Source: Acidimicrobiaceae bacterium (GTDB lineage: Bacteria; Actinomycetota; Acidimicrobiia; Acidimicrobiales; Ilumatobacteraceae). From it: 36,164 nt of DNA. The translations under genes were made by a program, and so were the position numbers. This document shows positions 1 through 32,533 of the stretch, in pieces. The DNA lies in the NCBI GenBank assembly GCA_002698945.1, contig NZZV01000016.1:1-36164 (forward strand), in the 5' to 3' direction. The notes below the pieces were generated by a model. The model did no database searches and was not told the origin of the DNA. It worked only from the letters and a program-made list of their open reading frames with translations. Position 1 is the first letter of the stretch. Every line of letters begins with the position of its first letter.

Positions 1-1511
1 ACGATGACGACGATGACGGCGAGCTGACGGCCCGCTTCACGGGTCGGTTGCAGTTCGGGACCGCGGGCCTGCGTGCCGCCGTCGGAGCCGGACCCCAACG
101 CATGAACCGGCTCGTCGTACGACAGGCGGCGGCCGGACTCGGTGCGTATCTGCTCGAACACGACGAGGCCGCCCGCGAACGCGGGATCATCGTCGGCTAC
201 GACGCCCGACGCAAGAGCGACGTGTTCGCGCTCGATTCGGCGCGCGTGTGGGCGGCGATGGGGATCCGGGTGCGCCTGTTCGACCAGCAGGTGGCGACCC
301 CGGTGCTGGCATGGTCGATCACCGAGACCGACTCGGCGGCGGGCGTCGTCGTGACCGCCTCGCACAACCCTCCGGCCGACAACGGGTACAAGGTGTACCT
401 GGCCGACGGCGCCCAGATCGTCCCGCCGCACGACACCGGGATCGCCGAGTGCATCGACCGCTACGACCCGACCACGGTCGAGCTCGCCGACGTCGACGAC
501 CCCCTGATCGAGTCGGTCGGCGACGAACTCGTCGACGCGTACGTCGCGTCCGTACCGGCGGTGCGCCGACGGCCCGACGTCGACGGTGTCACCGTGGCGT
601 ACACGGCGATGCACGGTGTGGGTGGCGCGACGATCCTGCGGGCGTTCGAGGCGGCCGGGCTCCCCGAGCCGGCCGTCGTCACGGCCCAGTTCGAGCCCGA
701 CGGGACGTTCCCGACGGTCTCGTTCCCCAATCCTGAGGAGCCGGGGGCGATGGACCTCCTGCTGGAGACCGCAGCGGCGGCGAACGCCCACGTGGCGATC
801 GCCAACGATCCTGACGCCGACCGTCTCGGCGCGGCCATCCCGCAACCGGCCGGCTCCTGGCGGCGGCTCGGCGGCGACGAGCTCGGATGGCTCTTCGCCG
901 ACTACATCCTCGCGACGACCGAGGGCGACGACCGGCTCGTCGTGACGACGCTCGTGTCGTCGTCGCTGCTCGGGAAGATGGCCGACGCCCACGGTGTCGC
1001 GTCGACCGAGACGTTCACCGGGTTCAAGTGGATCGCCCGAGCTGTGCACGACCATCCCGACCACCGGTTCGTGTTCGGGTACGAGCAGGCGCTCGGCTAC
1101 CTCGTGGCCGGTCAACCGCTCGACAAGGACGGCATCTCCGCCGCGGTGCTGTTCGCCGAGATGGCCGCCGTCGCCGCGGCCGAGGGCCGCACGATGCAGG
1201 GATGGCTCGACGACATCGCCGCCCGCTACGGCCGCCACGTGCTCGCGGACGCGTCGGTGCGTATGCCGCCGGCGGAAGCCAAGGCCAAGGTGCTCGAGCT
1301 GCGCACCACCCCACCGTCGGAGATCGGTGGTCGCGCGGTGCGGGCGACCGAGGAGTATCCCGAAGCCGACCTGTTGCGGTTCGAGCTCGACGGCGGGGTG
1401 CGGGTGCAGATCCGCCCCAGCGGCACCGAACCCAAGGTCAAGCTCTACGGCGAAGCCGTCGACGAAGACCCCGCCCCCTACGTCGAAGCCCTCGCCGCCC
1501 TGCTCGCGTGA
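1..1511 (+). CDS. Phosphohexomutase-family protein (phosphoglucomutase/phosphomannomutase, possibly phosphopentomutase), 5' end off window
   Basis: Alpha-D-phosphohexomutase superfamily enzyme that moves phosphate between C1 and C6 (or C5) of a sugar phosphate. The frame is open from base 3, so the TTG at 48 is not the start: about 15 upstream codons are visible, including a RF-G-LQFGTAGLR stretch typical of these enzymes before the first conserved domain. Counting from codon 48, the active-site serine lies in TASHNP (Ser105, codon at 360). The metal loop DPDADR, the sugar-binding loop GYEQALGY and the phosphate-binding RPSGTEPKVKLYGE follow in the usual order. It converges on a glycosyltransferase gene across a palindromic element. 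From memory, M. tuberculosis keeps pmmB beside upp and near add, so with upp and add close by, a phosphopentomutase role in nucleoside catabolism is plausible. The substrate cannot be read from the sequence. Confidence 0.9.
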   Translation, partial: DDDDDGELTARFTGRLQFGTAGLRAAVGAGPQRMNRLVVRQAAAGLGAYLLEHDEAARERGIIVGYDARRKSDVFALDSARVWAAMGIRVRLFDQQVATPVLAWSITETDSAAGVVVTASHNPPADNGYKVYLADGAQIVPPHDTGIAECIDRYDPTTVELADVDDPLIESVGDELVDAYVASVPAVRRRPDVDGVTVAYTAMHGVGGATILRAFEAAGLPEPAVVTAQFEPDGTFPTVSFPNPEEPGAMDLLLETAAAANAHVAIANDPDADRLGAAIPQPAGSWRRLGGDELGWLFADYILATTEGDDRLVVTTLVSSSLLGKMADAHGVASTETFTGFKWIARAVHDHPDHRFVFGYEQALGYLVAGQPLDKDGISAAVLFAEMAAVAAAEGRTMQGWLDDIAARYGRHVLADASVRMPPAEAKAKVLELRTTPPSEIGGRAVRATEEYPEADLLRFELDGGVRVQIRPSGTEPKVKLYGEAVDEDPAPYVEALAALLA

Positions 1512-1530
1512 ACGCGCACAGATGGTGTCC

Positions 1531-1616
1531 GCACTGATGGTGTCGGATACCTCCCGTGCGCGCCGGCGGTGCTCACGCCAGCTGAATGCACGGGAGGTAT
1601 CCGACACCATCTGTGC
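1531..1616. repeat. Palindromic element A: two inverted core copies 57 bp apart
   Basis: Arms 1531-1559 and 1588-1616 are reverse complements with one mismatch in 29 bases, around a 28-base loop. Each arm holds the 13-base core GGTGTCGGATACC (1539-1551, and on the other strand 1596-1608), with centres 57 bp apart. A further partial copy of the outer arm lies at 1516-1529. The element fills the gap between two convergent genes and ends 3 bases before the glycosyltransferase stop, so it could terminate both transcripts. It belongs to the same family as the repeats at 6449, 18320, 21632 and 26358. Confidence 0.85.
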
Positions 1617-1619
1617 AGG

Positions 1620-3308
1620 TCAGCGGGCTGTGTAGATGCGGAATCGGGAGTTGGACCACGCCTCGCGGTAGCGGTCGGCGTGGTCGGACATCATCTGGAG
1701 GTCGAACGGATCGTTGACCTCCACGACCACCAGCGACGGCGACCAGGTGTCGGGCAGCGGCCGCCACTGATCGACCTGGATCGCCCGACGTTCGGTCATC
1801 AGGGTCAGCGCACGCGCCTTGGGCCCGGCGACGACGTCCCCCGGGTCGCTGAGCGCCACGACGGCGTCGAACATCTCCACCGCGGACGGGTGGGTCGGGC
1901 CGTACTCGACGGCTCCCGCGTCGGCCGTACGTTGTGCACTGTCGATGCGGAGGTGCACGTTCGCCATATTGCCGGCCACGACGGCGGCACACACCACGAA
2001 CGCCGCCGTCAGGCCGACCCAGCGTCGCCGAAAGCCGAGCAGGGTCGCGACTCCCACGAGGGCGAGCAGGAGGACGATCGGCCCGACCGTCGTCATGTAC
2101 CGGTTGATCGCCGAACGGAAGCTGCCACCGATCGCGAACGCGACGAGTCCGTACACGACGATGTGGAGGTCGCGCCGTCGATGCACGGTGACCGCGGCGG
2201 CGACGCCGATCAGCATGGCAATGAGCACACCCCACATGGCGACGAGCCCGAGCCCTTCGCTCCCGAGGACGACGACGTGGCGGTCCCACGGTCGCTTCAG
2301 CCCGACCAGGTCGGCGACGTGGCGGAAGTGGCGCTCCGAGAAGCGGTAGGTGTTGCGGATGCTCGTGCCGTCGTACTGCGGTACGAGTGTGCTGGGCAGC
2401 GTCCACTGCAGTGCGTACACCGTCGCCAGGGCCGCCAGGTGCGGCACCAGGAGCCGCGCCACGAGGAGACGATCGGCGAACCACTCGCGCATCGGCGGCG
2501 ACCCCGTGGTGAGCAGCGCCAGTTGTGCGCCGCCGATCGCGGCGGTCATGGCGAGGCCCTCGCGTCGCACCGAGAACGCCGCAGCGGCGCCGACGCCGAG
2601 GAGCACGAGCGGCCACCAGCGCGCGGTCACGTCGGTGAGGACCCTCGACTCGATCGCCCGGTCGACGGCGACGAGCATCGCGAAGGTGACGGCCAGGAAG
2701 GGCCACTCAGACTGGATCAGCTCCGACCAGGAGAACAGCACCGGCGTCAGCACGATCGCCGGTGTGCTCACGAACGCGACGGTCGTGCCGAGACGCCGGC
2801 GGACGAGCACGAACCAGGCGCACGCAAAGACGCTGGCGCTGAGCACCGGCACCACGGCGAGCGCGTCGACGTCGACACCCACCACTGCCACGAAGGGCGC
2901 CAGGATCAGCGGGAACCCCCACGGATACAGCGGTGGGCTGAACGGGGCGCCGAGCGACTCGGTGACGGTGAACTCGTTGTCGGCGGTGATCGCACCGGGG
3001 TTGCCGTCGACGAGGCTCTGCGCCTGGCGGATGTAGAGCGCCCAGTCGTCGCCCCACCAGTGACCGGGGCGGTGACTGGCGAACATCAGCGCGGCCATCG
3101 CACCGACCAGGAGGGCGAGCCCCAGCCCGACGAGCACCGGGTGCGGTCGACGCCACCAGGGTGCCGGCGATTCGACCGGTGGGCCGTCGTATGGATGTCC
3201 GGTGGCCGGATCGGCCGGTCGATGTTCCGGGGGGTCGTCGCCTCGGGCGTGGTCGCTCCAGGTGTCGTGGGGCGCGGTGGGCGCGTCGTCGACGACCTGA
3301 CCGTCCAT
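1620..3308 (-). CDS. GT-C fold membrane glycosyltransferase (ArnT/PMT-like), 562 aa
   Basis: Probable polytopic membrane glycosyltransferase using a polyprenyl-phosphate sugar donor. A Pro/Asp/His-rich cytoplasmic N-terminus of about 50 residues is followed by a first membrane helix (about residues 56-77). The first outer loop contains WGDDWALYIRQAQ, the acidic motif typical of GT-C enzymes. About ten further hydrophobic segments and a soluble C-terminal region follow. It starts 8 bases after the upp stop, so it is probably the last gene of the phyH-add-upp operon, although its role does not obviously belong to salvage. Acceptor and donor are unknown. The class assignment rests on topology and the loop motif only. 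Confidence 0.7.
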   Translation of the reverse strand: MDGQVVDDAPTAPHDTWSDHARGDDPPEHRPADPATGHPYDGPPVESPAPWWRRPHPVLVGLGLALLVGAMAALMFASHRPGHWWGDDWALYIRQAQSLVDGNPGAITADNEFTVTESLGAPFSPPLYPWGFPLILAPFVAVVGVDVDALAVVPVLSASVFACAWFVLVRRRLGTTVAFVSTPAIVLTPVLFSWSELIQSEWPFLAVTFAMLVAVDRAIESRVLTDVTARWWPLVLLGVGAAAAFSVRREGLAMTAAIGGAQLALLTTGSPPMREWFADRLLVARLLVPHLAALATVYALQWTLPSTLVPQYDGTSIRNTYRFSERHFRHVADLVGLKRPWDRHVVVLGSEGLGLVAMWGVLIAMLIGVAAAVTVHRRRDLHIVVYGLVAFAIGGSFRSAINRYMTTVGPIVLLLALVGVATLLGFRRRWVGLTAAFVVCAAVVAGNMANVHLRIDSAQRTADAGAVEYGPTHPSAVEMFDAVVALSDPGDVVAGPKARALTLMTERRAIQVDQWRPLPDTWSPSLVVVEVNDPFDLQMMSDHADRYREAWSNSRFRIYTAR

Positions 3309-3316
3309 ACGGGTCG

Positions 3317-3952
3317 TCAGCCGCCGGTGCCGAACTGGCGGTCGCCGGCGTCGCCCAGTCCCGGCACGATGAACGCCTGATCGTTCAGGTGGTCGTCGAT
3401 CGCCGCCGTGAAGATCTCCAGGTCGAACCCTGCATCGGCGAGCCGCTGGATCCCCTCGGGCGCGGCCAGGGCACAGACGACGGTGATCGGGGTCGGTGCT
3501 CCTCGTTCGAGCAACAACTCGACGGTGTACGCCAGCGACCCACCGGTCGCGAGCATCGGGTCGAGCACGATCACCGGCCGCCCGGCGAGGGAGTCGGGCA
3601 GCTTGTTCACGTAGGCGTGCGGCTCGAACGTCTCCTCGTTGCGCGCCACACCGACGAAGCCGACGTCGGCGACCGGCATCAGCTCTTGAGCGGCGTGGAC
3701 GAACCCGAGACCGGCGCGCAGGATCGGCACGAGCACCGGCTGGACCGCGAGGCGCTTCGCCGGCGCGGTCGTGAGCGGCGTCTCGACATCGACGTCCTCG
3801 GTCGGCAGGTTCTCGGTCGCGGCGGCGATGAGGAGCGTGCCGATCCGTTCGAGGTTGAGCCGGAACAGCGCGTCGGGTGTCTCCTTGTCGCGGATCCGGC
3901 GCAGCGAGTCGGCGACCAGTGGATGGTCGACCAGGTGGACTTCGACGGGCAT
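3317..3952 (-). CDS. upp: Uracil phosphoribosyltransferase
   Basis: Cytosolic pyrimidine salvage enzyme converting uracil and PRPP to UMP. At 211 aa it has the normal family length. The PRPP loop DPMLATGGS (residues 131-139) and the uracil-binding C-terminal segment VPGLGDAGDRQFGT are intact. A good ribosome-binding site (GGAGGAG) precedes the ATG at 3952. It lies 40 bases downstream of the adenosine deaminase gene and 8 bases upstream of the glycosyltransferase, all on one strand, consistent with a nucleoside/base salvage operon. Confidence 0.96.
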   Translation of the reverse strand: MPVEVHLVDHPLVADSLRRIRDKETPDALFRLNLERIGTLLIAAATENLPTEDVDVETPLTTAPAKRLAVQPVLVPILRAGLGFVHAAQELMPVADVGFVGVARNEETFEPHAYVNKLPDSLAGRPVIVLDPMLATGGSLAYTVELLLERGAPTPITVVCALAAPEGIQRLADAGFDLEIFTAAIDDHLNDQAFIVPGLGDAGDRQFGTGG

Positions 3953-3992
3953 CAGGCGGCTCCTCCGGCGGTTTCAGGTGGGGACGAACGCA

Positions 3993-5072
3993 TCATCGGG
4001 CTCCGATCGTCGACTCGGCACGCAGTAGCGCGTAGCGCGGCTTGATGTAGCCGTTGATGATCTTCAGCCGCTCGGGGAACGGGGCGAACGCCGACTTCAT
4101 CGCGTTGATGGTGAGCCACTCAAAGTCGTACAGGTCCCAGCCGAACGCGTCGTGGAGCTGCTGCATCTCCTTGCTCATCGACGTGTCGCTCATGAGGCGG
4201 TTGTCCGTGTTGACCGTCACGCGGAAGCGGAGGCGCCGGAGCAGCCCGATCGGATGCTCGGCGACCGTCGCGCAGACCCCGGTGTTGACGTTCGAGGTCG
4301 GGCACAGCTCGAGACAGACGCGTCGATCGCGGACGAAGGAGGCGAGTCGACCGAGCTGTTCCTCGCCGGGTGGGCCGGTGATGTCGTCGACGATCCGGAC
4401 GCCGTGGCCGAGCCGCGCCGCACCGCAGTACTGCAGCGCTTCCCAGATCGACGGAAGCCCGAACGCCTCACCGGCGTGGATCGTCGAGTGGAAGTTCTCG
4501 TGGGCGACGTACTGGAAGGCGTCGAGGTGACGTGACGGCGGGTGCCCGGCCTCGGCGCCGGCGATGTCGAAGCCGACCACGCCGCGGTCGCGGTTGGCGA
4601 CGGCCAGCTCGGCGATGTCGCGGCTGTGTGCGGCGGTGCGCATCGCGGAACAGATCGTGTAGATCGTGAGGTCGGTGCCCGCCGAACCGCGCTCGAACCC
4701 TGCCAGGACGGCGTCGAGCACCTCCTGCAGGGTGAGGCCGCCTTCGATGTGCAGTTCGGGAGCGAACCGGACCTCGGCGTAGACGACATTGTCGGCCGCC
4801 AGATCCTGGGCGCACTCGTACGCGACTCGTTCGATCGCGTCGCGATGCTGCATGACGCCGACGGTGTGGGCGAAGGTCTCGAGGTACAGCACGAGGTCGT
4901 TACGTTTGGCGCCACGGTTGAACCACGAGCTCAAGGAGGCGATGTCGTCGGTGGGCAGCGCGCCGTAGCCGTATTCGTGGGCGAGCTCGAGGACGGTCGC
5001 CGGGCGGACGCCGCCGTCCAGGTGGTCGTGGAGGAGAACTTTCGGGGCGCGCTGGATCAGTTCGTCGATCAT
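3993..5072 (-). CDS. add: Adenosine deaminase (first copy), 359 aa
   Basis: Zinc enzyme deaminating adenosine and deoxyadenosine to inosine forms. The ATG at 5072 ([10 protein letters not shown]) is chosen because the frame upstream has no similarity and is rich in Arg/Ser/Thr; a weak GAGG lies 6 bases before it. Metal ligands HDH (His15, His17), the catalytic HAGE (His199, Glu202), GHG (His223) and NTDN (Asp290) are all present. The second Asp of the usual NTDDP is Asn here, as I recall for Streptomyces-type enzymes, so this is not a defect. It follows the phyH gene by 37 bases and precedes upp, so it is probably co-transcribed with both. A second paralogue lies at 6637-7689. Confidence 0.95.
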
Positions 5073-5109
5073 CGTGCGCCTCGGCGAGCGTCGTCGGTCG
5101 TCGTGGCGG

Positions 5110-5988
5110 TCATGCGGCCACGCTAGCGAGCCGGCGCAAGGGGAGATCGTCGCCGCGGCGGAGCCAGTTCCAGTCCGGGTACTCCGCTGCGGCCGAGATG
5201 CAGTGCACGGTGTACGCATGACGGCTTCGGGCGGAACGGTTCGCGTCGCTCCAGTGGGGGAGCAGACCGTCGAGGAGCACCATGGTGCCGGCGGCGACCT
5301 CGAGCGGGACGAGCTCGTGCGGAGGCGACGGTAACGGGGTCGGGTCGAGCACCTCGAAGACGGTGCCGTCGTCGTCGGTCATCGCCCCGGTGCGTTTGAA
5401 CAGCTGCCGGAGACCGGTGCGATGGCCGCCCGGTGCCGCCCACAGGCAACCGTTCTCGAGGGTGGCGTCCTCGAGCGCGAACCAGAAGCCGACGACGCTG
5501 ATCGGGTCGGTGTAGAGGAACGTGGCGTCCTGATGGCACGACACCTCGCCACCGATCGACGGTTGCTTGAAGATGTACATGCTCTGGAGGACCAGGGCGT
5601 CGTCGAGCCCGATGTCGGTCGCGACCTCCGCGAGCCGGGGTGTGTACGTGAACCGCTCGAAGACGGGGTCGAGATCGTGCATCGCGTGGCCGAGCTTGTT
5701 GATGCTCAGTTCTTTCGCCTGGACGAGCTCGCCGTCGGCGTCGAACGCCTCCTCCTCGAAGAAGCACCAGGTCGCGTCGCCGCTCGACAGGAACTCGCGA
5801 TTGCTCGACCGCTCCTGCTCTTCGGTGGTGAACACGGTGCGTTCGTCGGTCGGGTCCCATCCGTCGACGATCTCGACCGCACGCGATCGCAGCTCGGCGA
5901 TCGCGCCCGCGTCGACGAAGTCCGGTACGACGAGGAATCCGTCGCGCCGGAACCGGTCGACCTGCTCAGCGCTCAACATGGCGGACAT
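5110..5988 (-). CDS. Phytanoyl-CoA dioxygenase (PhyH) family protein, PHYHD1-like, 292 aa
   Basis: Fe(II)/2-oxoglutarate-dependent oxygenase. The facial triad is visible as CHQDATF (His152, Asp154) and LPHW (His245), with an Arg-rich 2-oxoglutarate-binding stretch RSRHAYTVH just after it. The [11 protein letters not shown] and [12 protein letters not shown] blocks and the length match eukaryotic PHYHD1 more than true phytanoyl-CoA hydroxylase. The ATG at 5988 is used, with ATG at 5979 as alternative; neither has a clear ribosome-binding site. It is probably the first gene of the operon with adenosine deaminase and uracil phosphoribosyltransferase, and divergent from the QueF-like gene, so a nucleoside-related substrate is a reasonable inference. 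The family is secure, the substrate is not. Confidence 0.85.
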
Positions 5989-6048
5989 CGTACGTCGACA
6001 CAGTCGGACTCCGATCGGTGGCGAGCGTCACGACCGTAGGCTGATCCG

Positions 6049-6435
6049 ATGAGTGAGCAGACCGAGAAGTTGACGGTGCTCGGGCAGACCGTGCGGCACG
6101 CCATCGACCACGTCGAGGTGTTCCCGGCGCCACCGAACGTGTCGGTCGTCAAGTTCACCAACGACGAGCTGAACTCGATGTGCCCGGTCACCGAACAGCC
6201 CGACCTGTCCAGGGTCGTGATCGAGTACGAGCCCGACGGATGGTGTATCGAGTCGAAGAGTCTGAAGCTCTACCTCTGGGGATTTCGCGACCGGGCCGTG
6301 TTCGCCGAGGCGCTCGCTGCCGAGATCGCCGGCGAGGTGATGGCCACGGCGACGCCCCGCTGGGTCAAGGTCACCCTGACGCAACGTCCCCGCGGCGGGA
6401 TCGAGATCGAGGTCACCAGCGAGCTGAACCGCTGA
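6049..6435 (+). CDS. Short QueF-like protein (preQ0 reductase family), 128 aa
   Basis: T-fold protein of the QueF family, which in canonical form reduces 7-cyano-7-deazaguanine (preQ0) to preQ1 with NADPH for queuosine in tRNA. The thioimide-forming Cys45 and Asp52 are in MCPVTEQPD, followed by the family signature ESKSLKLYLWGFR and a closing RPRGGIEI. The usual FHE substrate-binding motif reads FAE (Ala86-Glu87), and the protein is shorter than the roughly 165-aa single-domain bacterial enzymes, ending just after RGGI. It could be a divergent reductase or closer to the QueF-like amidinotransferase group. No other queuosine genes are in the window. It is divergent from phyH (60-base gap) and has no clear ribosome-binding site. 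Confidence 0.8.
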   Translation: MSEQTEKLTVLGQTVRHAIDHVEVFPAPPNVSVVKFTNDELNSMCPVTEQPDLSRVVIEYEPDGWCIESKSLKLYLWGFRDRAVFAEALAAEIAGEVMATATPRWVKVTLTQRPRGGIEIEVTSELNR

Positions 6436-6448
6436 TCCGGTCGGTTGG

Positions 6449-6644
6449 TCGGTTGAGGTCAGACCCCAACCGACATTGCCGGTCTGCGACGTCCGGGCAT
6501 GCCCGTCGGTTGGGGTCAGACCTCAACCGACATTGCCGGTCGGCGACGTCCGGGCATGCCCGTCGGTTGGGGTCTGACCTCAACCGACATTGCCGGTCTG
6601 CGACGTCCGGGCATGCCCGTCGGTTGGGGTCTGACCTCAACCGA
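6449..6644. repeat. Palindromic element B: four 25-bp palindromes at exact 57-bp period
   Basis: Near-perfect 25-base palindromes lie at 6449-6473, 6506-6530, 6563-6587 and 6620-6644, each beginning TCGGTTG and ending CAACCGA with a central GGTC(A/T)GACC. The first copy is the exact reverse complement of the third and fourth. The 32-base spacers are almost identical to each other. The array lies between convergent genes, and the last palindrome contains the stop codon of the leftward deaminase gene (6637-6639). Same family as elements A, C, D and F. Confidence 0.93.
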
Positions 6645-7689
6645 CGTGTGACGCGAGACGCTTGCGGAGGTCGAGGCTGGCGAAGCCGGCCATGATGCCG
6701 TTGCGGAGCAGCTGAGCGATCTCGTCGTCCGCGAGATCGAACGTGTTGGCCACGGCCGCGAGTTCCGACGACGGCATGACGTCGCTCATGAGACGATTGT
6801 CGGTGTTGACGCTGACGTCGAACCCCGCCCGCAGCATCGGCCCGATCGGATGGCTCGCCAGATCGGGGACGGCGCCGACGTGCACGTGACAGGTCGGCGC
6901 GACCTCGAGCGGGACCTGGTGATCGAGCACGTAGGCCGCCAGCGGGCCCATGGCGACGATCTCACCGTCGCGGATGTCGAGATCGGCTTGCAGCCGTACA
7001 CCGTGCCCGATGCGATGTGCACCGTGCACGAGCGCGTCGGAGATCAGCTCGAGGTCGGGCGGTTCGGAGGCGTGGATCGTCACGTTGAGGAGCCGCTCGC
7101 GAGCGAACGCCAGCGCCTCGGCGTGCAGCGAGGGTGGGAAACCGGTCTCGGCGCCCGCCAGGTCGAACGCCACGACCTTGTCGTCGCGTTCGCGCATCGA
7201 GTCGACCAGTCGGGCGATCTCGAGCGACCGCTGTTCGGTCCGCATGGCACAGAGGATCGCGAAGGCGTGGATCTCACGGCCACGCGCCGCGGCGTCGTGC
7301 TCGGCACGTCGGAAGCCGTCGGTGACCGCGCTCACGATCTCGTCGAGCGGGAGTCCCTGCTGTTGGTGGAGTTCCGGTGCGAAGCGGATCTCGGCGTACA
7401 CGACGCCGTCGTCGGCGAGGTCGGTGACGGCCTCGTAGGCGACGCGCCCGATGTGATCGACCGTCTGCATGACTGCGAGGGTGTGTTCGAAGGTGGCGAG
7501 GTACTGGAGCAGGTCGAGCGAGTTGGCGCCGGCCGTGAACCAGGTCTGCAGTTCGTCCGGATCGGTGCACGGCAGTGTCCAGCCGATCTCCTCCGCCAGT
7601 TCGAGCACCGTGCCGACACGCAGCCCACCGTCGAGATGGTCGTGCAGCACCGACTTCGGTGCCGCGACGGCGGCCGCGGTGTCGAGCAC
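6637..7689 (-). CDS. Adenosine deaminase-family protein (second copy), divergent, 350 aa
   Basis: Member of the adenosine/AMP deaminase superfamily, starting with GTG one base after the permease stop and so translationally coupled to the nucleoside importer. Metal ligands HDH (His16, His18), GHG (His229) and NTDN (Asp297) are kept, and the catalytic Glu209 is present. The usual HAGE reads HASE (206-209), and the CPTSN segment of the first copy is APTCH (264-268). It is therefore likely an active deaminase with altered specificity, perhaps for another imported purine nucleoside or an adenine analogue. The last two codons and the stop lie inside palindrome B4, so the element shapes its C-terminus. 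Confidence 0.88.
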   Translation of the reverse strand: MLDTAAAVAAPKSVLHDHLDGGLRVGTVLELAEEIGWTLPCTDPDELQTWFTAGANSLDLLQYLATFEHTLAVMQTVDHIGRVAYEAVTDLADDGVVYAEIRFAPELHQQQGLPLDEIVSAVTDGFRRAEHDAAARGREIHAFAILCAMRTEQRSLEIARLVDSMRERDDKVVAFDLAGAETGFPPSLHAEALAFARERLLNVTIHASEPPDLELISDALVHGAHRIGHGVRLQADLDIRDGEIVAMGPLAAYVLDHQVPLEVAPTCHVHVGAVPDLASHPIGPMLRAGFDVSVNTDNRLMSDVMPSSELAAVANTFDLADDEIAQLLRNGIMAGFASLDLRKRLASHVG

Positions 7690-7690
7690 G

Positions 7691-9085
7691 TCAGTGGTCG
7701 CCGCGCCGATACGGCACCCCGGCTGCCTTCGGCGGACGGAGACGCTGGGCGGCGAAGACGAGCACGAGCAGGACGAGCACGTACGGCATCGTGTTCGGCA
7801 GCCATGCAGCAGCCGACTCGGTCAGCAGATACCAGACGAGCGCCACCGTCCCGAGTCCGAACGCCAGCAGCGTCAGCCCACCGCCCTTGCCGCCGAGGGT
7901 GGCGACCATCTTCATGTACGAACTCGTCGGTGTGTCGTACGCAGCGGCGTCGATCTCGGGTGGTGGGGCATCGTCGCCGCCCGTTCGCCACAGGTAGACC
8001 GCCGTCGCGTACAGCGCGATCGCGATGACGAGCAGGAGGGCGCGTGTGGCGACCCCGCTGCCCGAGGCGTCGAAGTCGATCAGCGCGAGACCGAACGGGT
8101 AGCTGAACAGCAGCGAGCCGACGAGGATGCCCACCGCCCGCCAGTTCCCGAAGATCAGCGCGGCGAGACCGATGAAGCCACGGCCGACCGTCTGGCCGCC
8201 GCGGTAGAGGCCGGACAGTTCGATCACGATGTAGGCGCCGGCGAGGCCGGCGAGCGCACCGGAGATCATGACCGCGACGTACTTGTGGCGGTAGATGCCG
8301 ACGCCGAGCGATTCGCCCGCCGACGGGTTCTCACCACAGATCCGAACCCGGAGACCGAACTTGGTGCGGGTGAGCACGAACGCCGACAGTGGCACGATCA
8401 AGAGAGCGAGCAGGGTGAACCAACGCATGTCGGTGACGAATCCGAGCAGGACACTGGCGACGTCGGAGATGAAGAAGATGCCCCAGTCCTTGATCGTCTC
8501 CAACACGTCGGAGACGCCCGGGATGGTGAACGAACCGGCACTGCGAACGCGTGGCGATTGCGACACCGATCCGCCCTGCATCTCCCCGAACACTCGCTCG
8601 GACAGGTAGCGGGCGAGACCGGGCGCCAGGATGTTGATCGCGACGCCGGACACGATCTGGTCGACACCGAACTGGACGGTGGCGATCGCATGGAGGAGGC
8701 CGCCGAGCGCCCCGCCGATGAACCCGGTGAGCAGACCCCACCACGGCGATCCGAACTCGAGCGCCCCCCACGCGCCCGCCCACGTGCCGAGGATCATCAT
8801 CCCTTCGAGCCCGATGTTGACGACACCGGATCGTTCGGAGAAGAGGCCGCCGAGTCCGGCGAGGAGGATCGGGATCGACCAGCGCAGCATGGCGCTGGAG
8901 GTCACGTCGGACGTCAGCAGCGAAGTGCCGGCGAATTCTTCCACGATCGACAGGACCAGGATGCCGAGCGCGGCGGTGATCATCCAGCGCGCCCAGCCGG
9001 GCAGCGAGGTGTACGCCTCGGTGATCCCGCCGGAACCACCGGTGCCGTTCACGCTCGCGACGTCGAGGGGAGCCGTGTTGCTCAT
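7691..9085 (-). CDS. ABC nucleoside importer permease, second subunit (YufQ/NupQ type), 464 aa
   Basis: Inner-membrane permease of the branched-chain/ribose-type permease family, paired with a BMP-family binding protein for nucleoside uptake. After a short cytoplasmic N-terminus there are about ten hydrophobic helices. The segment LLAGLGGLFSERSGVVNIGLEGMM (written in part: SERSGVVNIGLEG) is the hallmark of these permeases. A further C-terminal extension has one or two more helices and an acidic loop (GGDDAPPPEID). Its ATG overlaps the stop of the upstream permease by 4 bases. It belongs to the five-gene operon of binding protein, ATPase, two permeases and deaminase. Confidence 0.92.
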   Translation of the reverse strand: MSNTAPLDVASVNGTGGSGGITEAYTSLPGWARWMITAALGILVLSIVEEFAGTSLLTSDVTSSAMLRWSIPILLAGLGGLFSERSGVVNIGLEGMMILGTWAGAWGALEFGSPWWGLLTGFIGGALGGLLHAIATVQFGVDQIVSGVAINILAPGLARYLSERVFGEMQGGSVSQSPRVRSAGSFTIPGVSDVLETIKDWGIFFISDVASVLLGFVTDMRWFTLLALLIVPLSAFVLTRTKFGLRVRICGENPSAGESLGVGIYRHKYVAVMISGALAGLAGAYIVIELSGLYRGGQTVGRGFIGLAALIFGNWRAVGILVGSLLFSYPFGLALIDFDASGSGVATRALLLVIAIALYATAVYLWRTGGDDAPPPEIDAAAYDTPTSSYMKMVATLGGKGGGLTLLAFGLGTVALVWYLLTESAAAWLPNTMPYVLVLLVLVFAAQRLRPPKAAGVPYRRGDH

Positions 9086-10191
9086 GCCGATGCCTCCACG
9101 AGTTGCGCCGCCCGTTTGACCTCGTCGCGCTGGCGGATCCGATTGACGACCTCGTACGCGATGACCGCCACCAGCAAGATGGTGGCCTGCATGATGACGA
9201 CGATCTCGCTCGAGGCGAGGTTGCTGACCTGCAGCACCGCCGCCGACGAGTCGAGGAAGCCGAACAGCAAGGCGGCGAACGCCATGCCGAGCGCCGTGTT
9301 GCGCCCGAGCAGGGCCACGGCGATGCCGGCGAAGCCGAGGCCCTGAACGAATCCCTGGTCGTATGCATTGGTGTCGGAGAGGATCTCCGGCATGCCGACG
9401 AGGCCGGCGACGAGGCCGCCACCCACCATCGCGAGCATGATCATCCGCTTCGGCGGCACGCCGCCCGCCCGTGCTGCGGTCGGGTTCATACCGCTGGCGC
9501 GGATGTCGAAGCCGAGCCGGCTGCGGTTGATGACGACGTGGTAAATGATGCCGACGATGATCGCCACGACGAAGACGCCGGTGAGTTGGCGGCCCTTGGT
9601 GATCTCACGCGTGAACACCTCGACCCAGCTGTTGAGGTCGGGGAGGCGGCCGGACTCGGCGATCGGGGTCGTGCCCTGGTTGGTGGCGGTGGGATCGTCG
9701 ATGAACTTCGGGAGCAGTCCGGCGACGAGACCACCCACAGCGATGAAGTTCAGCATGATCGTCGAGATGACCTCGTTGACCCCGCGGGTCACCTTCAAGA
9801 GGCCAGCGAGGCCTGACCAGGCGGCGCCCACGAGCATCGCCGTCAGCATGATGGCGGCGACGTGCAGCGGTGCCCAGAGGTCGAGTTCGGCGCCGACGAC
9901 GGCGGCGACGAAGGCCGCCAGGATGTACTGCCCCTCGACGCCGATGTTGAACAGGTTCATGCGGAACCCGATCGCAGCGGCGATCGCGGACAAGTACAGC
10001 GGCGTCGCCCGGTTGAGCATGTCGATCATCGACTCGAGCTTCGTACCGTTCTCGATCATCGTCCGGAACGTCTCGACCGCGTCGGAACCCGACAACTCGA
10101 GCACGATCGCCGAGATCAGGATTGCGATCGCCGCGCTCACGAGTGGTGCGGCGACCGCGAGGCCGACTCGGCGCAGCAGGCCCGTGTTCAT
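9082..10191 (-). CDS. ABC nucleoside importer permease, first subunit (YufP/NupP type), 369 aa
   Basis: Polytopic inner-membrane protein of the BMP-type nucleoside importer. It has about eight to ten hydrophobic segments and the family signature FRMNLFNIGVEGQY near the third helix. A long outer loop between helices (around FIDDPTATNQGTTPIAESGRLPD) probably faces the binding protein. Its start overlaps the ATPase stop by 4 bases and its stop overlaps the next permease start by 4 bases, so the three genes are translationally coupled. Confidence 0.92.
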   Translation of the reverse strand: MNTGLLRRVGLAVAAPLVSAAIAILISAIVLELSGSDAVETFRTMIENGTKLESMIDMLNRATPLYLSAIAAAIGFRMNLFNIGVEGQYILAAFVAAVVGAELDLWAPLHVAAIMLTAMLVGAAWSGLAGLLKVTRGVNEVISTIMLNFIAVGGLVAGLLPKFIDDPTATNQGTTPIAESGRLPDLNSWVEVFTREITKGRQLTGVFVVAIIVGIIYHVVINRSRLGFDIRASGMNPTAARAGGVPPKRMIMLAMVGGGLVAGLVGMPEILSDTNAYDQGFVQGLGFAGIAVALLGRNTALGMAFAALLFGFLDSSAAVLQVSNLASSEIVVIMQATILLVAVIAYEVVNRIRQRDEVKRAAQLVEASA

Positions 10192-11744
10192 GCGTCACCT
10201 CCGTGCACGACGTCTCCTTCCGAGGCGGCGCTGGTCTCGAGCGCGGCGCCCGTCATGTAACTCCCGAGTGTTCGGGGGGTGACCTCGTTCGGGTCGAGCG
10301 TCGCCACGAGCTTGCCGTGGAACATCACGACGATCGTGTCGGACAACCCGATCAGTTCGTCGAGGTCGGCCGACACCAGCAGTGTCGCCATGCCGTTGGC
10401 ACGAGCCTCACGGATGTCGTTCCAGACCTCGGCCTGCGCGCCGACGTCGATGCCTCGAGTCGGATGGGCGGCGATCAGCACGATCGGGTCGGCCGTCATC
10501 TCGCGGCCGATGATCAGCTTCTGCTGGTTGCCTCCCGAGAGCGCACGCGCACTGACGTCCACGCCGGGGGAGCGGACGTCGAACTCCCGACGGATCTCCT
10601 CGGTGCGCTCCCGGCTGCCGGCCCGATCGATCCAGAACCCCTTCGAGAACGGCGGTTTCGTCTGGTGGCCGAGCGCGGCGTTCTCCCAGAGCGTGGCGTC
10701 GAGGAGGAGGCCCTCGGCATGTCGGTCCTGCGGGACGAACCCGATGCCGGCTTCGCGCCGATGGCGTACCGACGACTTGGTGATGTCCTGTCCCATCAGG
10801 CGGACGCGACCGCGGACCGGGTCGCGGGTGCCGATCAGTGCTTCGATCAGCTCGGCCTGCCCGTTGCCCTCGATGCCGGCGACGCCGAGCACCTCGCCAC
10901 GGCGGACCTTCATCGAGACGTCCTCGACGGCGGCCCTCCCGTCCTCGTCCAGCACGGTCACGCCGGTGACCTCGAGTGCGACCTCGTCGGTGACCGTCGA
11001 GTCGGTGGTCTCGGGTGACGGCAGTTCGGATCCGACCATCAACTCGGCGAGATCGGCGGCGGTGACCGCATCGGCATCGACGGTGGTGACCGTCTTGCCG
11101 CGTCGGATCACCGTGATGCGATCGGAGATCTCGAGGACCTCCTGGAGCTTGTGATCGATGAAGATGATCGTCGCCCCATCGGCCTGCAGTTCGCGCAGGT
11201 TGCGGAACAGTTCTTCGACCTCCTGGGGGACCAGCACGGCGGTCGGCTCGTCGAGGATCAGGATCTTGGCACCGCGGAACAGCACCTTGATGATCTCGAC
11301 GCGCTGCTTCTCGCCGACCTCGAGTGTTTCGACGAGATCGTTCGGGTCGACGGTGAGCCCGTACGCCTCACCGACCGCTCGGAGGTGACGTTCGGCCTCC
11401 GCCTGGTCGATCAGTCCGTACTTCGACGGCTCGGAACCGAGGATGACGTTCTCGAGCACGGTCATCTGGTCGGCGAGCATGAAGTGCTGGTGCACCATGC
11501 CGATGCCCTGTGCGATCGCATCGGTGGGGGACGAGAAGTGGACCTCCTCACCGTGGATCTTCATGACACCCTCGTCGGCGGGCTGCATGCCGTAGAGGAT
11601 CTTCATCAGTGTCGACTTGCCGGCACCGTTCTCACCACAGATGGCGTGGATCTCGCCGGGCTCGACGCGCAGGTTGACGTCGTCGTTCGCGATCACGCCG
11701 GGAAACCGTTTCGTGATGCCGATGAGCTCGATCGCTGCCGTCAT
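10188..11744 (-). CDS. ABC nucleoside importer ATPase, double nucleotide-binding domain, 518 aa
   Basis: Cytoplasmic ATPase of the nucleoside importer, with two fused ATP-binding domains as in sugar/nucleoside ABC ATPases. Domain 1 has Walker A GENGAGKST, signature LEVGEKQR and Walker B ILILDEPTA. Domain 2 has a degenerate Walker A (GIEGNGQAE) and Walker B (LIAAHPTRG), with a good signature LSGGNQQK. That asymmetry is normal for the family. The ATG at 11744 is preferred because it follows AAGGAGG by 6 bases and the residues upstream are Arg-rich and unrelated. Two hairpins separate it from the binding protein gene upstream. Confidence 0.93.
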   Translation of the reverse strand: MTAAIELIGITKRFPGVIANDDVNLRVEPGEIHAICGENGAGKSTLMKILYGMQPADEGVMKIHGEEVHFSSPTDAIAQGIGMVHQHFMLADQMTVLENVILGSEPSKYGLIDQAEAERHLRAVGEAYGLTVDPNDLVETLEVGEKQRVEIIKVLFRGAKILILDEPTAVLVPQEVEELFRNLRELQADGATIIFIDHKLQEVLEISDRITVIRRGKTVTTVDADAVTAADLAELMVGSELPSPETTDSTVTDEVALEVTGVTVLDEDGRAAVEDVSMKVRRGEVLGVAGIEGNGQAELIEALIGTRDPVRGRVRLMGQDITKSSVRHRREAGIGFVPQDRHAEGLLLDATLWENAALGHQTKPPFSKGFWIDRAGSRERTEEIRREFDVRSPGVDVSARALSGGNQQKLIIGREMTADPIVLIAAHPTRGIDVGAQAEVWNDIREARANGMATLLVSADLDELIGLSDTIVVMFHGKLVATLDPNEVTPRTLGSYMTGAALETSAASEGDVVHGGDA

Positions 11745-11780
11745 GCGGCGCCTCCTTCCGAATCTGTCACATGGCCGTCG

Positions 11781-11851
11781 CCCGGGAACGGACACCGATT
11801 CCCGGGCCGAAAACGACGGAGCGGAGGCCGAACATAGTCGACCTCCGCTCC
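11781..11851 (-). terminator. Tandem intercistronic hairpins between binding protein and ATPase genes
   Basis: Read on the minus strand after the binding protein stop, a 10-bp perfect stem (11842-11851 with 11818-11827, 14-base loop) is followed by a short T run (CGTTTTCGG). A second perfect 8-bp stem (11799-11806 with 11781-11788, 10-base loop) comes next. The first looks like a leaky intrinsic terminator or 3' mRNA stabiliser, which would give more binding protein than transporter, as is usual for ABC importers. Confidence 0.65.
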
Positions 11852-11908
11852 ATCACTTGATTCTCACTTCATATCCGACAACCGGTCGATACCGGTGTCA
11901 GGGCTCGA

Positions 11909-13087
11909 TCAGCCCTCCGGGGCGGTGGGGACCTCGATGGCGCCGTCGATGATCTGGGCCTTGAAGTCCTCGATCTGGGCGATCTGGTCCTCGGTGAGGA
12001 AGTCACCCGACGTCGAGTAGCCGACGCCGTCGACCGACAGGTCGTACACGACGTTGCCGGCCTCGAAGGTGCCGTCCTGCTGGGCCTTGGTGATCTCGAA
12101 CACGGCGTTGTCGACACGCTTCAGCATCGAGGTGAGGATGTACTCCTGCACCTCGGGAGCTGCGGTGAGGTACTGGTCGGAGTCGACACCGATCGCCCAC
12201 ACCTTGGAGCCCGACGATTCGGACTGCTCGGCGGCGGCCTCGAAGAGACCGGCACCGGAGCCACCGGCTGCGTGGTAGATCACGTCGGCACCCTGGTCGT
12301 ACATCGCGAGAGCGATCTCACGGGCACGGTCCGGGGCGGTGAAGCCGTCGAAGTCCGGGGCCTGGGTGATGTACTGCGGGATGATCGTGATGTCGGGGTT
12401 GACGGCCCGGGCGCCGGCGGCGAAGCCGGCCTCGAACTTCTCGATCAGACCGAAGCCACCGACCCCACCGATGAAGCCGAGCGTGCCGCTCTCGCTGTTG
12501 AGTGCCGCTGCGGCACCCACGAGGAACGAGCCCTGCTCTTCGGCGAACGTCAGACCGGCGCAGTTCTCACACAGTGGCGCAGGGCCACCTTCGGCCTCGA
12601 AGTCCATCATCGCGTCGTCGACGACGGCGAAGTTGGTGTCGGGGTTCTCGGGGGCGGTCGCCGCCACGTCGCCGGCGAACAGGAAGCCGACGCCGATCAC
12701 GAGGGCGCTCTGGTCGGCCTGCAGCTGCAGCAGCTCGGCGCGGTTCGAACCGTCGGCGTTGGGCTCGGCCTCGGTGAAGGTGATGCCCAGTTCGGACTCG
12801 GCACGGTCGATGCCTTCGGCGGCCGAGTCGTTGAACGACTGGTCGCCGCGGCCACCGATGTCGTAGGTGAGGCCGACGTTGAACGACTCGCCGCTCGGCT
12901 CCTCCGACGGCTCCTCCGCCATCGTGGTGTCGGTGGTGTCGTCCGAGGGCTCCTCGGCAGGTTCTTCGGTGGGCTCTTCGGTCGGCTCGTCACTGGGCTC
13001 GTCGGCGGTGTCGTCGTCGTCGCCACATGCAGCGAGGACGAGCGAGGCAGCGAGACCGGCGGCAAGCAGTCGCTTGCTCTTCATCAT
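11909..13087 (-). CDS. BMP-family nucleoside-binding lipoprotein, 392 aa
   Basis: Extracytoplasmic solute-binding lipoprotein of the BmpA/PnrA (basic membrane protein) family, which binds purine nucleosides. The signal peptide ends in a lipobox LAAC (Cys21). A very acidic Asp/Glu/Pro/Thr linker (residues 22-68) tethers the binding domain, which begins FNVGLTYDIGGRGDQSFND, a family signature. A strong ribosome-binding site (GGGGGAG) precedes ATGATG; the start may be 13087 or 13084. First gene of the nucleoside importer operon. The same style of linker is found in the other lipoprotein at 24840. Confidence 0.93.
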   Translation of the reverse strand: MMKSKRLLAAGLAASLVLAACGDDDDTADEPSDEPTEEPTEEPAEEPSDDTTDTTMAEEPSEEPSGESFNVGLTYDIGGRGDQSFNDSAAEGIDRAESELGITFTEAEPNADGSNRAELLQLQADQSALVIGVGFLFAGDVAATAPENPDTNFAVVDDAMMDFEAEGGPAPLCENCAGLTFAEEQGSFLVGAAAALNSESGTLGFIGGVGGFGLIEKFEAGFAAGARAVNPDITIIPQYITQAPDFDGFTAPDRAREIALAMYDQGADVIYHAAGGSGAGLFEAAAEQSESSGSKVWAIGVDSDQYLTAAPEVQEYILTSMLKRVDNAVFEITKAQQDGTFEAGNVVYDLSVDGVGYSTSGDFLTEDQIAQIEDFKAQIIDGAIEVPTAPEG

Positions 13088-13166
13088 GTTCTCCCCCTTC
13101 GGGATTGATGTTCGTGCTGGATGTCCAGCGGTGTTCACGGGAACGCCGCCACGTTACCCGTTGGTA

Positions 13167-13191
13167 GGGCCCGATCCGTGATGTCGGGCCC
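13167..13191. promoter_or_regulatory. Perfect inverted repeat upstream of the nucleoside importer operon
   Basis: Eight-base arms GGGCCCGA and TCGGGCCC flank a 9-base centre, about 80 bases upstream of the binding protein start and about 80 bases upstream of the divergent crotonase gene. A weak minus-strand -10-like TAACGT lies about 15 bases further toward the importer. This placement suits an operator for a repressor of nucleoside uptake, but no regulator gene is adjacent. Confidence 0.35.
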
Positions 13192-13272
13192 GGGTAGGAA
13201 CGGGGCCGGTCGAGCGGCCGACTCGTCGTTGCCGATACGGGACCGACGAGGTCGGTTTGTCAGACTGCAACC

Positions 13273-14028
13273 ATGTCGATCGTGCTGACCAGCATCACCG
13301 AGGGCGTCGCCACGCTCACGCTCAACAACCCCGACGAGCGCAACACCATGACCGCCGAGATGGTCGAGGCCATCGTGGCGTCGATGGACGACTTCGAGGC
13401 GGACGAATCGGTCGGTGCCGTCGTCGTCACCGGCGCCGGATCCGCGTTCTGCGCCGGCGCCAACTTGGGGAATTTGCAGTCGGCGACGCGAGAGAGTCTC
13501 GGCAAGGTGTACGAAGGGTTCCTGCGGATCGCCCGGAGCCCGCTCCCGACCCTCGCGGCGGTGAACGGCCCCGCGGTCGGCGCCGGGATGAACCTGGCGC
13601 TCGGCTGCGACGTCCGCCTCGCGGCGCAGCGAGCCCGCTTCGACACCCGGTTCCTGCAGATCGGTCTGCACCCCGGCGGCGGCCACACCTGGATGCAACG
13701 ACGGATCGTCGGACCGCAGGCGGCGATGGCGGCCGTCGTGTTCGGTCAGGTGCTCGACGGTCCCGAAGCCGAGCGCGTGGGTCTGGCATACCGCTGTGTC
13801 GCCGACGACGACTTGCTCGACGCCGCGCACGAGTTCGCTCGAGGTGCGGCGTCCGCACCGCGGGAGCTGGCGATCCTCACCAAGCGGACGATCCAGGACA
13901 TGGCCGACATCGACAGCCACCGCGACGCCGTTCAACGCGAGTTCGATCCCCAGCTCTGGACGGTCAAGCAGCCCTGGTTCGAGGAGCGCATCGCAGCGTT
14001 GAAGGCCAAGATCTCGTCGAAGAAGTGA
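13273..14028 (+). CDS. Enoyl-CoA hydratase/isomerase (crotonase) family protein, 251 aa
   Basis: Crotonase-fold protein, probably acting on an acyl-CoA. The oxyanion-hole segments FCAGANL (59-65) and NGPAVGAG (98-105) are present, so thioester binding is expected. By alignment to rat mitochondrial enoyl-CoA hydratase, the two catalytic glutamates (Glu144 and Glu164) correspond to Asn107 and Phe127. A standard syn-hydration of enoyl-CoA is therefore unlikely, and an isomerase, hydrolase or other crotonase chemistry is more likely. No ribosome-binding site is visible before the ATG. It is transcribed alone, divergent from the importer operon. Confidence 0.85.
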   Translation: MSIVLTSITEGVATLTLNNPDERNTMTAEMVEAIVASMDDFEADESVGAVVVTGAGSAFCAGANLGNLQSATRESLGKVYEGFLRIARSPLPTLAAVNGPAVGAGMNLALGCDVRLAAQRARFDTRFLQIGLHPGGGHTWMQRRIVGPQAAMAAVVFGQVLDGPEAERVGLAYRCVADDDLLDAAHEFARGAASAPRELAILTKRTIQDMADIDSHRDAVQREFDPQLWTVKQPWFEERIAALKAKISSKK

Positions 14029-14111
14029 TCCTGACGACGGATCGGAAATCGCGCAGAACTGTTACCGAAGTCCCTTTCCCGGCCCGTTACCCGCGATCTA
14101 TGGTGAGTTCA

Positions 14112-14158
14112 CGTGGGAGGAACACCCACTCCCACGGCTACACGGACCGCAAGGAGGT
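14112..14158 (+). promoter_or_regulatory. Leader hairpin and strong ribosome-binding site of the small basic protein gene
   Basis: A 7-bp hairpin (14112-14118 with 14130-14136) is followed by AAGGAGGT at 14151-14158, 7 bases before the ATG at 14166. This strong Shine-Dalgarno sequence decides the start over an in-frame ATG at 14100. The rest of the 14029-14165 gap shows no firm promoter. Confidence 0.5.
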
Positions 14159-14165
14159 AGCCCAG

Positions 14166-14489: not shown

Positions 14490-14501
14490 ACTGACCCGAT
14501 C

Positions 14502-14527: not shown

Positions 14528-14537
14528 CGTCGTTTCA

Positions 14538-14582: not shown

Positions 14583-14585
14583 TGT

Positions 14586-18304: not shown

Positions 18305-18319
18305 CCGCTCGCCTGAAGG

Positions 18320-18401
18320 TCGGATGAGGTCAGACCCCAACCGACCTCGCAGAACGGCGCACTCGATGCATGCCGGTCGGTTGGGGTCTGACCTCAACCG
18401 A
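18320..18401. repeat. Palindromic element C: two 25-bp palindromes 57 bp apart
   Basis: Copies at 18320-18344 and 18377-18401 share the B-type sequence (TCGGTTG...CAACCGA around GGTC(A/T)GACC, first copy with TCGGATG). The second is identical to copies B3 and B4, 12 kb away, and the first is their inverted form with one change. The 32-base spacer has the same length as in B but a largely different sequence. It fills the gap between convergent NlpC and XdhC genes. Confidence 0.92.
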
Positions 18402-18412
18402 CATCGACCGAC

Positions 18413-21631: not shown

Positions 21632-21713
21632 ACGAAAGGTGTCGGATCCGTTGCGTCGGGTCACCCGGGCGGTGACAGCGATTCGGCGACGCAACGGATC
21701 CGACACCTTTCGT
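21632..21713. repeat. Palindromic element D: perfect 27-bp inverted arms, cores 57 bp apart
   Basis: Arms 21632-21658 and 21687-21713 are perfect reverse complements around a 28-base loop, the same loop length as element A. Cores GGTGTCGGATCCG (21638-21650) and its inverse (21695-21707) are 57 bp centre to centre. It lies 13 bases after the FAD oxidoreductase stop on the minus strand and 17 bases before the coxD start, so it probably ends the oxidoreductase transcript. Confidence 0.88.
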
Positions 21714-26357: not shown

Positions 26358-26440
26358 CCAGAAGGGGTCAGGCACCTTCAGGCGCGCAGGTCGAAGTGGG
26401 CTCGAAGCTCGGTTGCCAGAAGGTGTCTGACGCCTTCTGG
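26358..26440. repeat. Palindromic element F: two palindromic copies 58 bp apart
   Basis: Cores GGGGTCAGGCACC (26364-26376) and GGTGTCTGACGCC (26422-26434) have centres 58 bp apart. Each lies in a 25-base near-palindrome starting CCAGAAGG. The two arms 26358-26383 and 26415-26440 also pair with each other at 23 of 26 positions. It lies between convergent genes, 8 bases before the livF stop. Confidence 0.85.
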
Positions 26441-32519: not shown

Positions 32520-32533
32520 GCCGACGGTCGCGG

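Follow-up and report, generated by a model that had tools for sequence, protein, structure and literature searches.

Probable REPIN-type palindrome pairs at gene 3' ends in an Ilumatobacteraceae genome and their association with a RAYT-like transposase

Repetitive extragenic palindromes (REPs) of the classical type carry a GTAG tetranucleotide at one end (PMC8266576; PMC3733652) and are known to favour positions downstream of genes and between convergent genes (PMC3733652). In the REPINs of Pseudomonas fluorescens SBW25, the length and the hairpin capacity of the element are kept, with compensatory changes in the sequence (PMC3116915). The so-called TIRYT genes have inverted repeats on their flanks, many of them with the motif GGGGWSAS (PMC3733652), and most TIRYT examples were placed in subclass 2.1 by a survey that found no REP-like sequences near these genes (PMC6006769). 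Among the open-access papers listed for our searches, we found no account of REPINs of the kind described below in this lineage, none that contains the core strings and none that joins Ilumatobacter with "repetitive extragenic palindromic"; the printed literature may differ.

The starting point of the present analysis was a stretch of 36,164 nucleotides from an Acidimicrobiaceae bacterium (contig NZZV01000016.1 of assembly GCA_002698945.1), which is called the window throughout. It holds elements at five loci and one apparent empty site. The gene calls used throughout were made with our own script.

1531..1616: family B REPIN-like element with 29-bp arms and a 28-bp loop, in the convergent gap 1512-1619
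6448..6645: family A array of four 27-bp arms (6448-6474, 6505-6531, 6562-6588 and 6619-6645)
18319..18402: family A pair in the convergent gap 18305-18412
21632..21713: family B3 variant pair with 27-bp perfect arms and a 28-bp loop, in a tandem gap directly behind the 21727-23154 (-) gene
26358..26440: family C1 pair with imperfect arms, in the convergent gap 26277-26447
32520..32533: apparent empty site without an element, a 14-bp convergent gap; the orthologous gap in the congener G001 measures 110 bp and holds an A2 pair

An earlier note, made from the sequence of the window, had described 12 copies of a 13-base core at the five occupied loci. The core pattern GRNGTCNGRYNCY has 14 matches in the window, compared to a mean of 4.5 (sd 2.0) in shuffled sequences, none of which reached 14 in 100 attempts; the matches comprise 10 sites at the five loci, one of them on both strands, and 3 elsewhere. 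Ten of the 12 proposed copies fit the pattern exactly as it was written, but the two at 21632-21713 (GGTGTCGGATCCG) differ at the last base, and they clearly represent the same core as the remaining copies. The proposed centre-to-centre spacing of 57 or 58 bp is found at all loci, with 57 bp at 1539/1596, three successive steps of 57 bp at 6455/6512/6569/6626, 57 bp at 18326/18383, 57 bp at 21638/21695 (by sight) and 58 bp at 26364/26422. Four of the five loci lie between convergent genes according to our gene calls, as had been stated, and the element at 21632 occupies a tandem gap. The conserved unit exceeds the 13-base core, since it consists of arms of 26-29 bp around a loop of 28-31 bp, giving a pair length of 82-86 bp. 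In the four-arm array, the three 30-bp loops are nearly identical to one another, and the last arm runs into the end of the 6637-7689 (-) gene.

The source genome (G000; 4.36 Mb in 226 contigs, 82% complete) contains 733 matches to the core pattern (376 + 357), compared to 117 (63 + 54) for the same pattern reversed. An inverted-repeat search of a 406-kb sample of this genome, i.e. the window and 20 stretches picked for holding core matches, returned arms of up to approximately 29 bp, with a loop of mostly 27-31 bp, that fall into three main families. Their arms read GTCGGWTGAGGTCAGACCCCAWCCGAC in family A, GCACRGATGGTGTCGGATMCCTYCCGTGC and relatives in family B, and CCAGAAGGGGTCAGGCACCTTCTGGC in family C; by sight, the A and C arms are near-perfect palindromes themselves and the B arms imperfect ones. 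Hence, the repeats of the earlier note are real, but its single family has to be replaced by at least three families with differing arms and a single geometry. Exact pairs occur 29 times for A, 58 times for B and 13 times for C in the source genome (100 together; controls 0). Among 37 genomes, exact A pairs were also detected in G001 (23) and exact C pairs in G001 (51) and G004 (64), and B pairs were found in the source genome only, which makes the families nearly species-specific within one genus. The exact 27-mer of family A had 0 matches in named genomes.

The preferred distance is equally evident beyond the window. Successive arms less than 100 bp apart in the 406-kb sample were spaced by 56-58 bp in 43 of 56 cases and by 55-60 bp in 48 of 56, and when pairs were sought in two species within a limited range of 50-64 bp, 113 of the 146 obtained had distances of 56-58 bp; the lack of a genome-wide 57/58-bp excess, which had been named as a result that would speak against the family, was not observed, and the excess is strong. 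Two arms per cluster are the rule (37 of 50 clusters in the 406-kb sample, scanned with looser settings). The elements hence combine a pair of inverted palindromic arms, a preferred spacing and the capacity to fold into one hairpin, as expected for REPINs.

Arms that belong to one element are closer in sequence than those of different elements, with mean mismatches of 0.36 within versus 1.45 between elements for family A (22 elements) and 1.44 versus 4.94 for family B (16 elements), values that were reached in 0 of 2000 permutations in either case; in the five elements of family C no such within-pair excess was found (420 of 2000 permutations). The possibility that the loops are wholly unrelated is not supported, because their mean similarity exceeds that of shuffled loops, though the effect is small: 1.49 versus -1.16 for A (276 pairs), 2.08 versus -0.46 for B (120 pairs) and -0.2 versus -1.74 for C (10 pairs). 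In all, 8 of 276 A loop pairs and 6 of 120 B loop pairs were above the 99.9% level of the shuffles, and several of these A pairs involve adjacent copies in L025. Furthermore, clearly conserved loops exist at at least two orthologous sites of G000 and G001. The earlier note had taken constant spacing despite differing spacers as a sign of one factor that recognises the paired unit or of a copy mechanism. With weakly related loops, and at least two orthologous ones conserved, a special pairing factor is unneeded; the constant distance is compatible with loops that drift in sequence while the length of the hairpin is constrained, and the REPINs of SBW25 show the same spacer pattern, so that a constant distance with differing loops needs no new factor. 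In three clusters with third arms (L030:1919-2050, L030:11808-11960 and L023:15762-15895), a repeated piece of the loop precedes the additional arm, which suggests tandem growth by slippage or template switching. Another dispersed palindromic repeat of approximately 147-180 bp was noticed at L024:13796-13975 (contig C9 of G000); its arms read CGACACCCGACCCG and CGTTTCGGGAGATCACCCGAC, it has dozens of matches in G001, and it looks like a MITE without an assigned transposase.

The position of the elements relative to genes is highly biased. Only one of 59 multi-arm clusters in 0.72 Mb of the source genome was located inside a called gene (58 of 59 outside), and none of 83 in 1.38 Mb of G001, where one touches a gene edge; a looser earlier scan placed 2 of 50 clusters inside genes, one of them being a single arm with 6 mismatches. 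Equal occurrence inside genes, the other result named as speaking against the family, was therefore not found, and clusters are nearly absent from genes. A stop codon lies within 30 bp of 49 of 58 clusters in G000 and 73 of 82 in G001, with expected shares of 0.10 and 0.11, respectively, calculated from residual intergenic bases. Convergent gaps hold 23 of 58 clusters in G000 compared to a share of 0.196 of the residual intergenic bases (p 3.5e-4) and 34 of 82 in G001 compared to 0.255 (p 0.0012). Eight clusters in G000 and 27 in G001 overlap the coding end, and the element at L035:12278 appears to supply the stop codon of its neighbouring gene. On a larger scale, the region of approximately 1.4-3.0 Mb in G001, whose bounds were chosen after viewing the pair list, contains 0 of 23 exact A pairs and 7 of 50 tested C pairs (51 exist), with an expected share of 0.335.

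A Y1 transposase gene flanked by the same sequence, as sought by the earlier note, is present in the source genome. The only Y1_Tnp gene detected there by a PF01797 search of this 82%-complete genome (C46:18491-18814) is of the RAYT type and sits between family A pairs, one adjoining it upstream with a distance of 58 bp and one at the end of the frame downstream with a 2-bp loop (L001:2285-2340). A short-loop hairpin akin to the latter, with D-type arms, was also seen in the G001 gap orthologous to L028:11298. The frame is interrupted by one TAG, real or an assembly error, and this RAYT may therefore be dead. In G004, one RAYT gene has family C pairs on both sides, at 58 and 57 bp, so that a RAYT lies between its cognate arms for A in G000 and for C in G004. 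We found no RAYT flanked by B, A2, C2 or D arms, and in the 82%-complete source genome none flanked by family B, despite its 58 pairs, or by family C.

RAYT relatives were detected by profile in 8 of 10 genomes of the genus and are absent from G009 and G007. Fifteen of the relatives were aligned, without the interrupted G000 gene and a number of weaker or incomplete ones; all were found with PF01797, so that their 15/15 match to that profile is not independent. The N-H-x-H and Y-x-x-x-N motifs are invariant among them, which provides the HUH motif and catalytic Tyr of a RAYT within the Y1_Tnp core, and a long C-terminal extension follows. A profile built from this alignment had E. coli TnpA-REP (4er8; E 0.0014) as its sole match in the PDB up to E 0.01, and the NCBIfam model REP_Tyr_transpos matched 6 of 7 queries with 46-64 bits, below its cut-off of 80. 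A C-terminal helix-turn-helix exceeded the Pfam cut-off in only 1 of 15 RAYTs (Sigma70_r4_2), and no Bac_DnaA_C was detected; the residues 212-256 of the RAYT at L043 (G021) match sigma-70 region 4, i.e. a helix-turn-helix fused to the Y1 transposase.

The presence of a RAYT gene does not predict a large element population, at least by the patterns applied here. The complete genome of G001 harbours the arm types A, A2, C1, C2 and D, and the single RAYT of this genome has a different unit on its flanks, GGGTCAGGTGCC...GAGGTGACGACTCGC, which still contains GGGTCAGGTG. Exact A, B or C pairs were found neither in the RAYT-bearing congeners G002, G003, G005, G006 and G008 nor in G009 and G007 without RAYT, and patterns taken from the RAYT flanks of two other congeners yielded just 3 pairs in G006, spaced by 62 bp, and a single one in G003. 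Several families may share one RAYT, most families may have outlived RAYTs that are now lost, or the other congeners may have families of their own that these patterns miss.

The relation to known RAYT branches was assessed through short motifs. None of 8 arm consensuses contains GTAG or CTAC, which occur in just 4 of 142 clusters and, outside the elements, within 8 nt of 11 of 284 ends; the palindromes thus lack the 5' GTAG-like tetranucleotide of classical REPs. No conserved insertion motif was seen outside the arms, where the most conserved position reached 0.80 bits (C, family D, 14 flanks) and family A at most 0.21. The core of family C, GGGGTCAGGCACC, matches GGGGWSAS, most A arms read GGGGTCTG and are one base off, with a match in the window arm 6505-6531, and the B arms (GGTGTCGG) are two bases off. 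Among 80 named RAYT relatives that were kept, including five Acidimicrobiales or Acidimicrobiia records, 14 had flanks too short for the flank-repeat analysis, and 49 of the remaining 66 share a repeat of at least 11 bases between upstream and downstream sides (a sharing without chance control), with GGGTCA in 36 of these 49. GGGGWSAS occurs 90 times in 62,217 bases near the RAYT genes (1.45 per kb) versus 59 times in 181,306 bases far from them (0.33 per kb), a 4.4-fold difference. The palindromic 13-bp core was considered as a universal RAYT tag and rejected, because just 7 of 80 named loci have it nearby (0.18 versus 0.06 per kb far away); the shorter GGGTCA is commoner near named RAYT loci than this core. 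We infer an origin of the core from the tag of a long, TIRYT-type branch of RAYTs, and it is likely, if unproven, that the RAYTs found here belong to subclass 2.1.

Comparison with the complete and syntenic congener G001, which shares 80-85% nucleotide identity along the window, revealed that all five window sites are occupied there as well. The orthologous gap of the 1531 site holds a C2 pair, the 6448 site an A element whose loop departs from the G000 one at 2 of its 30 bases (by sight), with a C element nearby, the 18319 site an A2 pair plus one A arm, the 21632 site a C2 pair and the 26358 site an A2 pair. In 145 orthologous gaps, from which the 6448 site is absent due to extra sequence in G001, elements were found in 21 gaps of G000, in 21 of G001 and in 15 of both, with 3.0 expected (p 2.4e-11); tandem gaps account for 6 shared ones versus 0.92 expected (p 1.5e-5). 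Some of the G001 stretches had been picked for holding elements, and the others had not, except for extensions of C9 and C37. The contiguous blocks B0-B3 comprise 126 gaps, with 18 occupied in G000, 16 in G001 and 12 in both versus 2.3 expected; some of their stretches were initially picked for holding elements, a choice that inflates the margins but is not expected to produce co-occurrence by itself. Split by gap type, the blocks have 5 shared tandem gaps versus 0.72 expected (p 6.6e-5) and 6 shared convergent ones versus 4.0 (p 0.066), and the tandem excess persists without short gaps (residual length at least 40; 5 versus 1.12, p 4.9e-4). Five of the 12 shared block gaps contain the same arm type, three the sister arm type only and four unrelated families. 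The coincidences of unrelated families are not significant within gap types (convergent 3 versus 1.92, p 0.25; tandem 1 versus 0.18, p 0.17), so that an exchange of families where sites are kept is suggested rather than established, and it was dropped as a separate effect. Of 14 shared sites with comparable loops, only C37:22980 has clearly homologous ones, and two further sites are borderline cases, namely window 18304 (rank 0 of 27) and L022:4432 (rank 1 of 27).

The evidence for the mobility of the unit consists of its presence or absence between species and one nested copy. Apparent empty sites in the sister species, as asked for in the earlier note, exist in both directions. Besides the window gap 32520-32533 (14 bp in G000 versus 110 in G001), the gaps at L035:5057 (7 versus 284) and L022:9850 (9 versus 97) are short in G000, and those at C37:3965 (103 versus 25) and C9:27857 (105 versus 32) are short in G001, the last with a possible arm remnant. 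One insertion is nested: an A element that is intact in G000 has a C1 element within its left arm in G001 (L034/S086), and the A2 pair beside an A arm at the 18319 site may be a second such case. A fixed cleavage point was considered for partial arms that abut elements and is not claimed, since these occur at 16 of 292 flanks versus 10 in a shifted control; in seven of the 16, the partial arm stops at GTCGGWTGAT or extends one base beyond it. In the complete genome of G009, which has no RAYT by profile, the inverted-repeat search found 0 elements in a 60-kb stretch that includes the neighbourhoods of all window sites but the one at 26358, a region missing from that stretch. The same search detected 4 elements in the window (36 kb) and 8 in a G001 stretch of 60 kb. 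As a control, G009 has to be read with the fact that its zero exact pairs are common to RAYT-bearing congeners, too.

Together, the genome-wide pairs, the RAYT gene between the same arms and the apparent empty sites support the REPIN-like reading proposed at the outset, and the elements are very probably REPIN-type miniature mobile elements spread by a RAYT-like transposase. Each unit has a pair of inverted REP-like arms, 26-29 bp long, around a loop of approximately 30 nt, and it would spread via single-stranded DNA by means of an HUH/Y1 RAYT-like enzyme that recognises the folded arm and the core. The RAYT found here would be the one that moves them. Length and hairpin, rather than the loop sequence, are presumably kept, and tolerance plus target choice would lead to the 3'-end bias; the RNA hairpins of approximately 84 nt may also act at transcript ends, and hypothetically an occupied site would for this reason tend to remain occupied while the resident family changes. 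It is improbable that the elements are instead immobile terminators or mRNA 3'-end stabilisers made by the host, similar only through selection on hairpin and core. Such an origin would agree with the stop-codon placement, the enrichment in convergent gaps, the sites common to both species beyond chance and the strong RNA folds (z -6.5 to -10 in five folds of four elements; -9.8 for 1531..1616), but it leaves exact arms at dozens of sites that are missing from most congeners, presence and absence at orthologous gaps, the nested insertion and the RAYT between the same arms without an explanation. Moreover, the U-tract behind the hairpin of intrinsic terminators is almost always lacking: T-runs, defined as 5 or more T among 8 bases within the next 12 nt, are present behind 0 of 118 element ends in G000 and 3 of 166 in G001 (3/284 together). 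Some clusters also reside in divergent gaps (6 of 58 and 7 of 82, respectively). A terminator scan of window positions 1-20000 permits loops of 3-8 only, to which whole pairs are invisible. Termination without a U-tract, protection of mRNA ends and mere tolerance are all possible, and the role as bidirectional terminators suggested in the earlier note is hypothetical. Degenerate or mini CRISPR arrays, in turn, have next to no chance: the 27-bp repeats with supposedly unique spacers of approximately 30 bp, four of these repeats in the window array, do have CRISPR-like lengths, but most sites have just two repeats (37 of 50 clusters), usually in inverted orientation, the spacers of the window array are near-identical, several arm families have one geometry, and a RAYT gene lies between such repeats.

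Compatible with the spread of REPIN-type elements by a RAYT is an exaptation after the mobile origin, in which sites are kept for a useful hairpin and families replace each other. We regard it as possible, though we do not lean towards it. The co-occupation of gaps (15 of 145 versus 3.0 expected, tandem alone 6 versus 0.92; 12 versus 2.3 in the blocks, including four unrelated families and three sister arm types only), the tandem excess that remains without short gaps (5 versus 1.12) and the loops at shared sites, clearly homologous at only 1 of 14 with two more borderline, point in this direction. However, convergent sharing alone is weak in the blocks (6 versus 4.0, p 0.066), few acceptable sites may explain the coincidences of unrelated families, as these are not significant within gap type, and the insertion into an older arm (G001 S086) demonstrates that targeting could yield the pattern without selection. 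In its strongest form, gene 3' ends in this genus would be standing "berths", i.e. positions that persist between species while the resident REPIN family is exchanged, with new families inserting into older arms and the host keeping the hairpin. This extension is tentative and on the doubtful side, with one clear and one probable nested case behind it; if true, REPIN populations would represent a renewable supply of transcript-end structures, originating from a RAYT type thought to be REP-less.

The kind of element is already known, and the new aspects are its pairing with a transposase type reported as REP-less and the observation that corresponding gene ends of a congener frequently bear a hairpin as well. 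The REPINs of SBW25 are alike in being extragenic, RAYT-linked inverted REP doublets that form hairpins, in having a preferred inter-REP distance (71 bp in GI and 110 bp in GII) and in having a spacer less conserved than the arms; here, the distance is 57 bp, the arms are without GTAG and the core is another one (PMC3116915). E. coli BIME/REP sequences with TnpA-REP likewise are intergenic palindromes in inverse pairs and tandem copies, usually with one RAYT gene, but have GTAG and a bulge, unlike the arms here (PMC8266576). The turnover of REP classes in Pseudomonas and Stenotrophomonas is similar in that repeat classes replace one another between related strains; there it was described at orthologous RAYT genes, whereas here the arm types differ in orthologous gaps away from RAYT (PMC3686654). 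With TIRYT genes and TIRtrons the elements share inverted repeats flanking a Y1 transposase, many with GGGGWSAS, and some of those TIRs form moderately abundant families, dimers or clusters, but the present case differs in having several families of arms that all keep one geometry, dozens of pairs in a single genome, and an A core one base and a B core two bases off GGGGWSAS (PMC3733652). TnpA-REP subclass 2.1 (RAYT group 1 in that survey) resembles the RAYTs found here in the long proteins with a C-terminal extension, in NH[YF]H and Y[IV]H-NP-like motifs and in GGGG[AT][CG]A[CG] flanking repeats; in contrast to the surveyed members, the arms here both bracket the gene and are dispersed genome-wide, and a helix-turn-helix was found in 1 of 15 C-termini (PMC6006769). 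Long C-terminally extended RAYTs, surveyed as REP-less near the gene, are now linked to large REPIN populations, and two syntenic species with presence, absence, nesting and arm-type exchange at mapped gene ends make it a testable question whether REPINs are kept for a host function or tolerated where they are least harmful.
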